A stretch of 64,000 nucleotides of DNA from Grammothele lineata. Its lineage: Eukaryota; Basidiomycota; Agaricomycetes; Polyporales; Polyporaceae. Every line of letters begins with the position of its first letter. Positions within the stretch are counted from its first letter, which is position 1. Shown here one piece after another: positions 12,698 through 53,011 of this stretch. The notes below the pieces were generated by a model. That model worked only from the letters and a program-made list of their open reading frames with translations, was not told the DNA's origin and did not search any database. The DNA lies in NCBI GenBank assembly GCA_002150815.3, contig NDFF03000402.1:124001-188000 (forward strand), read 5' to 3'. Made by a program: the position numbers and the translations under genes.

Positions 12698-14696
12698 TCA
12701 CCTGTACATGCCCCCCATCATGGCCGGCCCGGTGACCTTGCTCCACGGAGACGGCGCGAGGCGCGAATACCGCTGCTCGACACGCGGGGCGGGGGGCTGC
12801 TGGTGTTGGTGCTGGTGTTGGGGTGGGGGCGGACGCGCCGCGGCGGCGAATGGGCCCTGGTGCGAGGACGGCGGCGCGGGCGGCATGCTCACGGGCTTGG
12901 GGGGCAGGAGGTGCGCCTTGGGGGGCGGGCCGGGCGGCTGGCCGTGCCGCGCCTTCCAGCTGTTCCGGATGGCGAGCGAGCGCGCGAGGAGCTGCGAAAA
13001 GGATAAGTGGATAGATGGGTCAGCGAACTGCGCGAGAGCTATGACGAGTGGGAGAGGGACGTACCACATCCTTCTCGACACCATCTGCAATGCTCTTGAT
13101 GATATTCTCCACGACAGACTTGTGGTTCCCATTCGGCTTGTCGTTGCGGAAGCGCATCATGCGCCAATGTTCGCCTTCGATATCCCAGTGGACCTCCACA
13201 AGGCGTTCGTCGAGTTGCTCCTGCTTGTCCTTCATCCTAAGGGACGCTCCAGACATCAGTCCAGTCCACCCAAGGAGCAGTATCAAAGGCTTACCTTTCC
13301 CACTCGTCGTCGGTGACATACATCACGTCATAAAACTCGTACCGCGCCTGACCATGGTTGTCACCACACCATACGTGTAGCTCGAATATGGGCTTCGTCT
13401 GGAAGTCGGGTACGGTAGGCTTCCCTGGCGTGGGCGCAAACCGCAGCACAAGCTTGAAATCAATGGAATTCTCCGAGGGTGGCTTCCATTTCAATCTGAG
13501 AATAAGCATTTCCGCGCGGAGTGGAGCGTTTCGGTGAGAAGGCCGCCATCAGTTAACCGTACACAAAAGAAAAAGCGAGCGAGGGAACGCACATGTTCTG
13601 ATCCGTGCCGGGCGAGTAGGATGTGTTCACACATGTGTAAATGAGCCCATCATTTCCGTGCTGTAGCGAAGGGATGTCGATGTTGAACACATCTTCGACG
13701 CGGTACGAGACCTTGACGTCCTTGACCTTGAACCTGCCCTCACGGGAAAGACCGGTGCGCGCCGTCAGCTCGCGTGCATTGATGGACTACGCACAGCAGG
13801 CCACGCACTCAAAAGGCTGATTGTGTGCCATGTGCGGATGGTCGCGCATCATCTGCTGGTATGGCTTATACATCCATTGCTGTAAACGCTGCAACGAACA
13901 AGGTGCGTGTCAACTGCGCTGGCCCCGCAGCGAAATGGTATCCTCGTTGGGGATCACGTACCCCGTAGCGCTTATCCAAAGGGCGGGACATGACGTGCTG
14001 GTCGTCGACGACTAGGCAATCGAAAGCTAGATAACGCAGAGTTTCCTGTATCAACAGACAGACGGATAGGCGGCGGGCACAACTCGGTCAGCATAACGGA
14101 CAGAACGGAAAGCATGCAGCCACAAACTTGGTGCGTGCGACGATCAATATCCATGACGAGCTCTCCGTCGACAATAGAGCTGCGTAAGGGCATGCGAGGG
14201 TCTTCGTGGTGCGGGAAATATAGACCGTTGAGCTGCCGATAGGTATTGTGGCGGTCGATCTGTGCGCGCACGACCAAGATTAAGCATTCTCGCGCGCGAC
14301 ATGCGCGAACACAATGCTCACCAGATACGCCATCTGGTCTCCTGAGGGGTCCGTCTGAACGAGGAGGAGGACGCGAATGCCGTCAGACTTCTCGGCGACC
14401 CAGAAGCTACCAAATACGCCACAATTATAACGTCGTACGCGCAAGGGACAAACGACGCAAGACGCACTCTTCCTTTTCCAGCTTGTCCAAGTCCTTTGCA
14501 GCGAAGCTGACTGGTTGTCCGCCAGGAAACCTGTATGCGAAGTAGCGTGAGGATATAATCCGTTGGATAACGAGACTGGCGCCACATACCGCTCATTGTC
14601 CAAATGACAGAGCGTGGCCACTGTCCTCTTCAACCAACGTTCTTGGTCAGAATGTGGGGGCACAAGCATGCCGGGTAGTTCAGGTATTGGAGACAT
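12698..14696 (-). CDS. CEG1: mRNA capping enzyme, GTP:RNA guanylyltransferase
   Basis: Ten exons (14696-14590, 14530-14468, 14406-14322, 14259-14128, 14045-13962, 13888-13809, 13733-13593, 13495-13295, 13236-13065, 12991-12698) encode 452 residues with consistent phase. The enzyme transfers GMP to the 5' diphosphate end of nascent RNA polymerase II transcripts. The nucleotidyl-lysine motif is EKSDGIR, a KxDG motif like EKTDG in yeast. It is followed by the further family motifs IVDGELVMD, LAFDCLVVD, DGLIYT, LKWKP and the motif V/OB-fold region RMMRFRNDKPNGNH. The last 75 residues are a Pro/His/Gln-rich tail, probably disordered. The start at MSPIPELPG is the first ATG in frame. An hAT-like element ends 186 bp upstream of it. 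Identification is secure. Confidence 0.95.
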
Positions 14697-40965: not shown

Positions 40966-42297
40966 ATGTTCACCGGAAACGGCATCAAAATCTTTTCTGG
41001 TACGTCTCACCTTCAGGCCAACGGCTCTCCGTCTGCTTCAGCTTCTTCCCTCGTAGGCACTAGCCACCCGGAGCTCGCGGAGGTCATCACCAGACGGTGC
41101 GTGCAAGCCGTGGTCTATCCCAAACACCTAAGGGCCCTGAGATCTTTGCCGCAGACTCGGCGTACCCCTGGGAAAGGCTGAGGTCACGAAGAACGGCATT
41201 GGCGAGAGCAACATCCGCATCATCGAGTCCGTGCGCGAAGACGATGTGTACATCATCAACACCGGATGCGGGGAGATCAATACGGCCCTCATGGAGGTTT
41301 GCATTATGATCCATGCATGCAAGATCGCAAGTGCGAAGCGCATTACCGCTATCCTCCCCCTCTTCCCATACGCTCGGCAAGACAAGAAGGACAAGAGCCG
41401 TGCGCCCATTACGGCTAAGCTTGTTGCCAACATGCTACAAAAGTCGGGCTGCGACCATGTCATCGTGAGTTATGGTGTCTTTTCGGCTCCTTCAAGTGAA
41501 CTGACAAAGTTCAACCCCGACGTTGTGCGGATGTAGACCATGGACTTGCACGCCTCGCAGATACAGGGCTTCTTTGATGTCCCCGTTGACAAGTGGGTGT
41601 TCTGTCACTCGTGAAAGCACGAATACACGCTTACTTTCATTCCGATGCACAGCGTAAGTGACTTCCGTCCATGTTCGGGTCCTGTAGTCGTTTACATATG
41701 CCGTAACGCAGCTCTACGCGGAACCATCAGCTATCATGTATATCCGCACCAACTTCAATCTCGCGGACATCGTCATTGTGTCGCCCGATGCCGGCGGTGC
41801 AAAACGGTACGCCGTATGATTACTCAGAGTGTTCCTAATTCGCTTACCCCACTCCCGCGTGACCCTCTAGAGCAACATCCATAGCTGATCGCCTTGGCGT
41901 CGACTTCGCCCTCTTCCACAAAGAACGCAAGAAGGCGAACGAGGTCTCGCGGATGGTGCTCGTCGGTCACGTCAAAGGCAAGATAGCCATACTTGTCGAC
42001 GACATGGCCGACACATGTGGTACGCTGTGTCTCGCCGCCAAGCATCTGGCGGAAGCCGGCGCCACGGCGGTCCACGCGTTGGTCACCCACGGGATCCTGA
42101 GTGGCAACGCACTGAAGAACGTGGAAGAGTCGGCGCTGGAAAAGCTGATCGTGACGAATACGCTCCCGCAGTCGGAGAACGTCGCTGGCTGCGCGAAGAT
42201 CGAGGTCATCGACATCGGGAACGTTCTTGCCGAGGTGATTCGGCGCAGTCACTATGGAGAGAGCGTGTCGAAGCTGTTTGATGAGGTGCCGTACTAG
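40966..42297 (+). CDS. PRS: Ribose-phosphate pyrophosphokinase (PRPP synthetase)
   Basis: Exons 40966-40999, 41057-41096, 41155-41464, 41537-41592, 41653, 41712-41806 and 41871-42297 total 963 nt, or 320 residues, close to the usual 318. The enzyme makes PRPP from ribose 5-phosphate and ATP for purine, pyrimidine, His, Trp and NAD synthesis. Landmarks are [40 protein letters not shown] (ATP loop), [35 protein letters not shown], and the PRPP-binding loop [10 protein letters not shown]. The family motif VDNLYAEP is intact only when the single base C at 41653 is an exon between two canonical introns. A direct join of 41592 to 41712 shifts the frame. Which yeast PRS paralogue it matches cannot be told here. 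Confidence 0.93.
41653..41653 (+). other. Single-nucleotide exon in the PRPP synthetase gene
   Basis: The base C at 41653 is preceded by GCACAG (acceptor of intron 41593-41652, donor GTGGGT) and followed by GTAAGT (donor of intron 41654-41711, acceptor AACGCAG). The upstream exon ends with AA and the downstream exon starts with CTCTAC. Inserting C makes AAC CTC TAC, which is the conserved Asn-Leu-Tyr of VDNLYAEP, and keeps the frame to the stop. Both introns have normal length (60 and 58 nt). Transcript evidence is needed to settle it. Confidence 0.8.
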
Positions 42298-50011: not shown

Positions 50012-53011
50012 ATGGCTTCCTCTATGAACTTCACCGACAAAACCCAGGAGTCGCTTTCAGCGGCCATCCAGCTCGCTAAGGACTACGCAAACGCGCAAGG
50101 TAAGTATCTCGTTCCTGATAAGCATTTTATCTCATAATTGACGGGTCGCGTATACAGTCCATCCCGCTCACATCGCCTTCGCGTTCCTCAACGAGGGTCA
50201 AGGCGAGGCCAATGGAGCATCTTCTGGTTCACAAAACTCGCTCTTCAGCTCGGTCATCGAGAAGGCTGGTGGTGATACCGTAAGTTCCTGTGTAATGTCT
50301 TACGCAACCTGCCCTGCTAACAATGTCTCGTAGACCGCCGTCCGGAGAGGTATCCAGAAGCTCATCGTTCGGCTGCCCACTCAGTCTCCTCCCCCGGATG
50401 AGATCACACTTGCTTCTGCCACCATGAAGGTCCTCCGCGACGCCGACTCGTTACGCAAAACCATGCACGACTCTTACATTGCACAAGACCACGTTCTCGC
50501 AGCCCTTATCAAGGACTCTTCCATCTCCCCTGTACTCAAGGCGGCAGGTCTGACCGAGGAAGTCCTCAAGACTGCTATCGACCAGATCCGTGGCAACCGT
50601 CGAGTCGACAGCAAGAACGCGGAGCAGGGCTTCGATGCCTTGGGCAAGTACGCCACCGACCTCACCGCGCTCGCTGAAGAGGGCAAACTCGATCCCGTGA
50701 TCGGTCGCGATAACGAAATCCGTCGCGTCGTTCGCATCCTTTGCAGAAGGTCCGTTGACGTCTTTCGACTAAGCCTTCGTGATTGTTACTGACATTGCCT
50801 TACAGAACAAAGAACAACCCGGTGCTCGTCGGCGAGCCCGGTGTTGGCAAGTCTGCCATCGCCGAGGGCCTCGCTCAACGGATTGTCAACCGCGATGTCC
50901 CCGCTTCCCTCATCGCGCGTCTCTACTCCTTGGATATGGGCGCGCTCATGGCCGGCGCCAAGTACAAGGGCGAGTACGAAGAGCGCATCAAGTCTGTCCT
51001 CGACGAAGTCGAGAAGGCTGCCCAAGACGGTCCCGGCGTCATCCTCTTCATCGATGAACTCCACCTCATAATGGCAGGCCAAGGCTCAGAAGGTGGAGGC
51101 ATGGACGCTGCCAACCTCTTCAAGCCCTTGCTCGCTCGTGGCAAGCTTCGCTGTATCGGCGCGACCACACTCTCCGAGTACCGCAAGTACATCGAGAAGG
51201 ATCCCGCGCTCGAGCGGAGGTTCGCCCAAGTACTCGTCAACGAACCTTCCGTAGCCGAAACGATTTCAATCCTCCGTGGTATTCGAGAGAAGTACGAGGT
51301 CCATCATGGCGTCCGCATCCACGATGGTGCCCTTATCGCCGCGGCGACTCTCGCACACCGCTATCTCACATCAAGGCGTCTACCGGATTCTGCTATTGAC
51401 TTGGTCGATGAAGCCTGTGCCAGGTATGTGACTTTAGCTCTGCATAGTCCAGTTCACGTGGTCGCTCACGATCTGTGGACAGTGTACGTGTCACTCGCGA
51501 GACCGCGCCCGAGGCTATCGATCAGTTACAGCGTCGCAAACTCGAACTCGAAGTCGAGATCCATGCCCTAGAGCGCGAGAAAGATGATGCTTCGAAGGAG
51601 CGTCTCGTCGCCGCCCGCAAGGCCATCGCCGACCTCGATGACCAGCTCCAACCCCTACAAGCCGCGTACCAGGCCGAGAAGCAGCGTGGCGACGAGATCA
51701 ACAACGTCCGCCGGCGCATCGACGACCTCAAGGCCAAGGCTGACGAGGCCGAGCGCCGTTATGATCTCGCCACTGCATCTGACCTGAGGTACTATGCCCT
51801 CCCCGACCTCACGAATAAGCTCGCGCAACTCGAGGCGAAGAAGGCCGAGGAGGACGCCGCCCGCGGCTCTGGTACAGACACCGTCACCCCCGACCAGATT
51901 GCAGAAATCGTCGCGAGGTGGACAAACATCCCCGTGACGCGGCTAATGAGCACGGAGAAGGAGAAGCTGCTCCGTATGGAGAAGATACTCGCGGGGAACG
52001 TCGTCGGCCAGCCTGAGGCTGTCAAGGCGGTTGCCAACGCGATTCGTCTAAGTCGTTCGGGTCTCCGCAACGCGAACCGCCCCATCGCAAGCTTCCTGTT
52101 TGCTGGTCCATCAGGTACCGGTAAGACTCTCATGAGCAAGACGGTAAGTAGTGCTTGCTTGTCTATAGTATAGTGAAACTGTTTACTCAAGGCCGTCTCT
52201 CTAGCTCGCAACACTCCTCTTCGACTCTCCGGAGGCGATGATCCGTATCGATGGCTCTGAGTACTCCGAGAAGCACTCGATCGCTCGTCTCATCGGTGCA
52301 CCCCCAGGCTACGTGGGCCATGACCAGGGCGGTCAGCTCACCGAGTACATCCGTCGGAAGCCGTACTCGATCGTCCTCATCGACGAGATCGAGAAGGCCT
52401 CGAGGGAGTTCTATCAGCTCTTCCTTCAGGTCCTCGACGACGGAAGGTTGACGGACGGTCAAGGCCGCATCGTCGACTTCCGCAATACAGTCATCATCAT
52501 GACGAGCAATCTCGGTGCGGCCTTCCTCAACGAGATGGGCGAGGGTGCGGTCAAGCCCCAGACCCGCGAGCTCGTCATGGGCGCCATCCGCAACCACTTC
52601 CCGCCCGAATTCATTAACCGTATCGACGAGATCGTCATCTTCCGCACCCTCTCCCGCCAGAACGTGCTCAAGATCGTCGACATCCGGCTCCAGGAGGTGC
52701 AGGAGCGGCTTGCGGACCGGAAGATCAAGCTCCAGCTCGATGACGCGGCAAAGAACTACCTCATGTCCATCGGGTACTCGCCCGCTTATGGTGCGCGGCC
52801 GCTCAACCGCGCCATCCAACAGGAGTTGTTGAACCCGCTCTCGGTGATGATCCTATCTGAGCGCGTCCTCGACGGCGAGACGGTGAACGTCCAGTTCGAT
52901 GGCCCGCACAACCGCTTGCACATCGTGCCCAACCACGAGGGCACAGGCGAGAGTATGGACATCGACTGGGACGACGTCGACGACGACATCGACATCGAGG
53001 AAATGGACTAA
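50012..53011 (+). CDS. HSP104: Heat shock protein Hsp104, ClpB-type disaggregase
   Basis: Six exons (50012-50099, 50158-50279, 50334-50749, 50806-51423, 51483-52143, 52205-53011) encode 903 residues, near the 908 of yeast Hsp104. This hexameric AAA+ ATPase pulls polypeptides out of aggregates together with Hsp70. The N-domain begins [18 protein letters not shown]1 has Walker A GEPGVGKS and Walker [10 protein letters not shown]. The coiled-coil M-domain follows ([19 protein letters not shown] region). NBD2 has GPSGTGKT, the pore loop GYVGH and Walker B IVLIDEIE, with sensor IIMTSNLG and the arginine pair in FINRIDEI. The C-terminus is an acidic tail ([15 protein letters not shown]) comparable to the Hsp70/Hsp90-contacting tail of yeast Hsp104. 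Confidence 0.96.

Follow-up and report, generated by a model that had tools for sequence, protein, structure and literature searches.

A gene for a class I PRPP synthetase-like protein in Grammothele lineata very probably contains an exon of a single nucleotide, C41653, which would split the codon for Asn147 into AA and C. Four features of the sequence mark out the candidate exon: its effect on the reading frame, the splice signals at its edges, the lack of any other such site in the gap and the agreement of the product with its protein family. The gene lies in a stretch of 64,000 nucleotides of contig NDFF03000402.1 (hereafter the window, numbered from its first base) and is laid out as follows.

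40966..40999, + strand: PRPP synthetase exon 1, with the start codon (joined frame, blind gene finder)
41057..41096, + strand: PRPP synthetase exon 2 (joined frame, blind gene finder)
41155..41464, + strand: PRPP synthetase exon 3, encoding the bulk of the Pribosyltran_N domain and an unusual KNGIGE loop (joined frame, blind gene finder, homologue comparison, Pfam)
41537..41592, + strand: exon 4, 18 residues plus AA, which begins the next codon (joined frame, gene finder)
41593..41652, + strand: intron 4a, 60 nt, GTGGGT...GCACAG (ranked by total score at percentile 45 among 160 introns)
41653..41653, + strand: candidate one-nucleotide exon, a C that supplies the last base of the AAC codon for Asn147 (only AG-N-GT in the gap, VDNLYAEP restored, choice of the gene finder)
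41654..41711, + strand: intron 4b, 58 nt, GTAAGT...ACGCAG (ranked by total score at percentile 22 among 160 introns)
41712..41806, + strand: exon 6, starting with CTCTAC at a full codon (joined frame, blind gene finder)
41871..42297, + strand: exon 7, to the stop codon, with DDMADTCGT (joined frame, gene finder, Pfam)

Exon 4 ends in GTTGACAA, its final AA being the first two bases of a codon, and exon 6 opens at 41712 with CTCTACGCG. The gap between them measures 119 nt, and joining 41592 directly to 41712 leaves the message one base short. Within this gap AGCGT, at 41651-41655, is the sole AG-N-GT, so that one base separates the AG of one complete intron from the GT of the next. When C41653 is included, the seven exons add up to 963 nt and encode 320 residues plus a stop codon in an unbroken frame; the C completes AAC and yields VDNLYAEP, a motif of PRPP synthetases. 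The first-pass annotation of this DNA had proposed the same structure, and its boundaries (an exon at 41537-41592, a 60-nt GTGGGT...GCACAG intron, C41653, a 58-nt GTAAGT...CGCAG intron and an exon starting at 41712) proved correct as written; the joined frame likewise confirmed its reading of AAC-CTC-TAC, VDNLYAEP and a 320-residue product.

Elsewhere in the window, an HSP104/ClpB-like gene model occupies 50024-53011 on the + strand (899 aa, six exons, unbroken frame), and a 305-aa model at 12698-13991 on the - strand matches mRNA capping enzyme. In the catalytic-domain profile the latter match begins at position 106, and the 5' part was probably missed by the model.

The predicted protein and its Asn147

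We compared the predicted product with its family. Residues 6-319 aligned to human PRPS1 (E 6e-132), Pfam identified the three domains expected of class I PRPP synthetases (Pribosyltran_N, Pribosyltran and Pribosyl_synth), and the score against TIGR01251 was 358.8 bits, where the cut-off is 113. PVDNLYAEP was identical across the three alignments shown in the homologue search, human PRPS1 among them. Against NCBIfam NF002320, the product with Asn147 scored 382.5 bits, a product with Lys-Trp at this point (from the donor at 41597, discussed below) 375.2 and one with exon 4 skipped 311.6. By numbering counted from the alignment, Asn147 corresponds to N144 of human PRPS1, and a table in PMC7403961 names N144S among relapse-specific leukaemia mutations.

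How fixed this Asn is can be judged from 15 bacterial homologues, an unbalanced sample made up chiefly of Holdemania and candidate-phyla species. In these the column holds N in 5, Y in 6 and D in 4, and none of the 15 has an insertion directly after that column; 11 of them carry one extra residue some positions upstream. Since the bacterial column varies among N, Y and D with no insertion there, the Asn is less fixed than the length of the motif at the junction.

The 41.8-Mb genome contains at least two PRS loci, the gene in the window and a paralogue on contig C204 that reads VDNLYSEP and is intronless at this site. Class I PRPP synthetases have a nucleotide loop of the form F-[SA]-[ND]-x-E, and the window copy has KNGIGE in its place; the loop is KFSNQE in human PRPS1, FSNGE in the paralogue and F-[SA]-D-x-E in all 15 bacterial homologues. 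Because of this loop we call the predicted product PRPP-synthetase-like and regard its catalysis as uncertain. Residues that contact adenine are replaced in this loop, so the copy in the window may be a regulatory or altered subunit.

Splice signals, gene-finder choices and chance

We trained a gene finder on 264 kb of the same genome (the 64-kb window and 200 kb of contig C204), which yielded 64 genes and 162 well-flanked introns, all of them predictions and not cDNA. The 162 predicted introns have the donor GT[AG][AC]GT, a branch site near CTGAC and a median length of 66; the 160 that lie outside the PRS gene served as the comparison set. By this same-genome model both 4a and 4b are ordinary, resembling the genome's introns in length and signals. 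In 4a the donor alone ranks below average, at percentile 15, and its GTGGGT occurs in 2 of the 160; the best branch match, GCTTACT, places its A 20 nt from the intron's end. In 4b the branch is at percentile 11, the best match being a weak GTTTACA with its A 18 nt from the end, and the donor ranks at percentile 22, as few donors follow a C (19/160). Similarity between 4a and 4b, as a possible duplication would leave, was at chance level, with 321 of 2,000 shuffles equally similar.

When tiny exons were barred, the finder omitted exon 4 altogether and joined 41464 to 41712, with a score of 54.2. When one-nucleotide exons were offered it took C41653, scoring 61.0, 58.0 and 55.0 at penalties of 0, 3 and 6, respectively. 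At the penalty of 6 nats this was its sole one-nucleotide pick in 66 genes, and at 0 and 3 it made one further such pick, in a gene on C204 whose NACHT-like identity was read from the sequence. Offering only 2-nt or only 4-nt exons produced one pick each, both outside PRS, and with all lengths from 1 to 11 nt allowed at penalty 3 the one-nucleotide exon in PRS was kept while two 7-nt exons and one 4-nt exon were chosen elsewhere. Given that the finder also picks other tiny exons, a pick alone is no proof.

Three of the other sites can be placed on C204. The predicted NACHT-like gene, at C204:426614-426774 of G000 (126614-126774 of the joined piece; L040), has CAG-G-GTGAGT, where a one-nucleotide exon was preferred at low penalty and a 7-nt exon scored slightly above it when permitted. 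Candidate tiny exons of 4 (or 2) nt and of 7 nt lie at 64220-64350 (L034) and 114673-114833 (L039) of the joined piece.

We estimated how often such a site would arise by chance with dinucleotide shuffles of the gap, in which the first six and last three bases were held fixed and both introns had to be at least 40 nt long. Some AG-[CT]-GT appeared in 2,637 of 20,000 shuffles; a site scoring as well as the real one appeared in 3. Genomic stretches placed in the gap gave any such site in 961 of 14,260 cases and an equal score once, in a stretch that sits elsewhere in the window. Among the 27 other predicted introns of at least 95 nt, 6 contain an AG-N-GT and none has an equal score, the nearest being the C204 NACHT-like case (9.1 vs 11.5 for PRS). 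The one-nucleotide-exon interpretation of the first-pass annotation is thus supported by the splice model, by the gene finder once offered the option and by the protein-family fit.

Alternative junctions and rival explanations

Our enumeration of single introns took in GT, GC and AT donors between 41560 and 41699 and acceptors of the AG or AC type as far as 41734. It also took in insertions of one exon between a donor fixed at 41593 and an acceptor fixed at 41711. Single GT-AG introns that leave the frame open do exist, running from donors 41579, 41585 and 41597 to the acceptor at 41711, and some to 41687. Two statements of the first-pass annotation therefore hold in a narrower form than they were given: that exons 4 and 6 cannot be joined in frame is true of one canonical intron that keeps VDNLYAEP, and that a direct alternative needs a non-GT donor is true of a plain K replacing the N. 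Its statement that other acceptors lead to a stop or a non-conserved frame has to be amended for 41687, which is also open with the same three donors. All three donors scored below every one of the 160 comparison introns (percentile 0) and delete or replace conserved residues; the intron from 41579 to 41711, for example, removes VPVDN. Without the C, the junction in the message would read GTTGACAACTCTAC, and AAGTGGCTC is the other junction that would conflict with the C exon.

Besides C41653, seven insertions left the frame open and were rejected on intron size. Six of these would place 25-37 nt inside VDN-LYAEP beside an intron of 22-28 nt, and the seventh is a 34-nt exon with a GC donor and a 25-nt intron. 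C41653 is thus needed for the conserved-protein frame, as the alternatives that keep the frame damage the motif.

The scored alternatives comprised the six main single introns and the intron that skips exon 4, and the pair 4a and 4b outscored each single-intron alternative among them. In nats, the totals were +0.33 for the pair, -2.92 for exon 4 skipping, -4.93 for one 119-nt intron (frame broken), -10.61 for the donor at 41579, -10.95 for that at 41597 and -16.22 for that at 41585; for these totals the donor, acceptor and length models were built without the PRS introns, which stayed in the branch and coding models, and neither one-base exons nor lost bases were penalized for rarity. With assumed priors of 1 in 10,000 for a one-base exon (about -9.2 nats) and 3 in 100,000 for a lost base (three positions; about -10.4), the pair falls to about -8.9, still ahead of the donor at 41597, and the 119-nt intron to about -15.3. 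Skipping of exon 4 has the better splice score once these priors count, yet its family fit drops by 71 bits, from 382.5 to 311.6.

The main rivals to the one-nucleotide exon are a lost base in a single 119-nt intron and a decaying gene copy with an altered ATP-site loop. If one intron spans 41593-41711, the Asn codon has lost a base, through an assembly error or a real deletion, and AG-C-GTAAGT is a coincidence. An intron of this length would be unremarkable, as 18 of 160 sampled introns reach at least 110 nt, so the length of the gap proves little by itself. The deletion, however, must have struck precisely the junction codon, 3 of 963 coding positions and outside any long homopolymer, in company with a chance site of a quality reached by 3 of 20,000 shuffles. 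Three of six other predicted genes in the window (HSP104-like AAA, amidohydrolase and NUDIX) match whole family profiles with no break of frame; the other three (lipase, capping enzyme and NIPA) gave partial matches, perhaps through a fault of the gene finder, and the scan of these six was not a systematic survey of assembly errors. We consider a lost base improbable.

Decay, or incomplete translation, would free the junction from any constraint on its frame, and both the loop (NGI, vs FSN in the paralogue and human protein) and the further PRS copy in the genome are in keeping with it. Against this, the remaining exons are open, all four remaining introns begin with GT and end with AG, the three expected Pfam domains are present and just two PRS loci (a lower bound) were found in 41.8 Mb; decay also leaves the well-placed AG-C-GTAAGT unexplained. 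We consider decay highly improbable. The slightest chance belongs to a single canonical intron with the weak donor GTGTTC at 41597, spliced to 41711, which yields VDKWLYAEP and 321 residues. This intron is GT-AG, keeps the frame open and gives a protein that matches its family at 375.2 bits, 7.3 bits worse than the product with Asn. Its donor, at -2.50, scores under all 160 comparison introns, 157 of which have G at +5, and GTGTTC occurs in none of 162; moreover, it replaces the Asn with Lys-Trp, adding a residue at a place where none of the 15 bacterial homologues has one.

Proposed splicing and published one-nucleotide exons

If C41653 is an exon, AA would end exon 4, the lone C would constitute exon 5 and CTC would open exon 6, with U2-type introns of ordinary appearance, 60 and 58 nt long, on either side of the C. 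We suggest that 4a and 4b are removed one after the other, since the acceptor AG of 4a (41651-41652) would lie inside the stretch covered by U1 snRNA at the donor of 4b, and the two sites could hardly be bound at once. Such sequential removal is plausible. Were 4a to leave first, AGC/GTAAGT would become AAC/GTAAGT, a better donor, and the site would act as a ratchet point at which one base is retained. The donor score of 4b rises from 5.12 to 6.75 nats once 4a is removed, and the acceptor score of 4a is unchanged when 4b is removed first; either order would yield the correct message. The predicted products are 182 residues if the C is dropped (with a frame shift), 153 if 4a is retained and 203 if 4b is retained.

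It is also possible, and we offer this with considerable doubt, that the single C represents intron sliding held at a persistent intermediate stage. On such a reading the two introns, in phase 2 and phase 0, lie one base apart and are spliced in a preferred order, the first excision improving the donor of the intron that remains; a relative that had lost one of the two would seem to show an intron shifted by one base, and imperfect splicing without the C would give the 182-residue product and could in that way tune enzyme level. A single-nucleotide intron shift was reportedly described by Fekete in 2017. No literature linking intron sliding with microexons was found in our search, nor anything related on PRPP synthetase introns in basidiomycetes.

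Contrary to the first-pass annotation, which knew of no fungal example, a one-nucleotide exon has been published for Fusarium CYP621A, in 20 orthologues (24 genes in all) and with support from 18 SRA reads, and its authors call it the first fungal case (Nelson and Syed 2026, PMC12940212). As in PRS, a single base between AG and GT completes the codon of a conserved motif in a fungal nuclear gene, the gap is about twice the usual intron length and automatic annotation missed the exon. The Fusarium gene is an ascomycete P450 with a G exon (AGGGT) backed by RNA, whereas the present candidate is a C in a gene of primary metabolism, read in one genome from its DNA. No other nuclear fungal one-nucleotide exon was found in the open-licence literature searched.

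The plant precedent that the first-pass annotation had named, Arabidopsis APC11, is in print, where cDNA as well as constructs with a reporter demonstrate the exon (Guo and Liu 2015, PMC4674806), and APC11 and VPS55 one-nucleotide exons of plants appear together in PMC8831610, in which a read mapper failed on plant APC11 unless given the exon. The APC11 exon is constitutive and, like that of PRS, required for the frame; it differs in being from a plant and in lying 333 nt into a gap of 422 nt (PMC4674806). In VPS55 the single nucleotide is followed by a GTRAGT donor, as by GTAAGT in PRS, but that exon is conserved in diverse land plants, is documented by RNA-seq and RT-PCR and gives alternative isoforms in some lineages (PMC8831610).

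Fungal stwintrons likewise comprise two short U2 introns at one place and are spliced consecutively, as proposed for PRS (PMC8469720, PMC5639578). A stwintron is an intron within an intron, interrupting the donor, branch or acceptor element or nested in a wide sense, and keeps no exon base (PMC8469720), whereas 4a and 4b are complete neighbours, with a GT, a branch match and an AG apiece, and a single base is retained between them. Microexon terms were absent from two stwintron papers examined by text search, and in a Rhizoctonia genome paper microexons appear just as a mapper setting. The fungal mitochondrial introns rnl-576 and rnl-577 also have insertion sites one base apart with a one-nucleotide exon between them, and some relatives are said to have just one of the two; these are non-spliceosomal group II introns in an rRNA gene (PMC12308204). 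P450 genes of the basidiomycete Phanerochaete chrysosporium resemble PRS in having very small exons between short introns, the shortest being 6 bp (2 aa), against 1 nt in PRS (PMC1184071).

Spliceosomal exons of one base are very rare, the published examples being a handful of plant genes and a single gene of Fusarium, and the PRS gene is probably a further case of this already published structure. If confirmed by RNA, it would add one more gene to APC11, VPS55 and CYP621A, here an enzyme of primary metabolism. It also holds a lesson for gene models, in that ordinary gene finders may err at such sites: the finder lacking a one-nucleotide option lost a whole upstream exon. With introns this small, the gene would provide a compact system in which to test whether overlapping acceptor and donor sites impose strict turn-taking on the splicing machinery.
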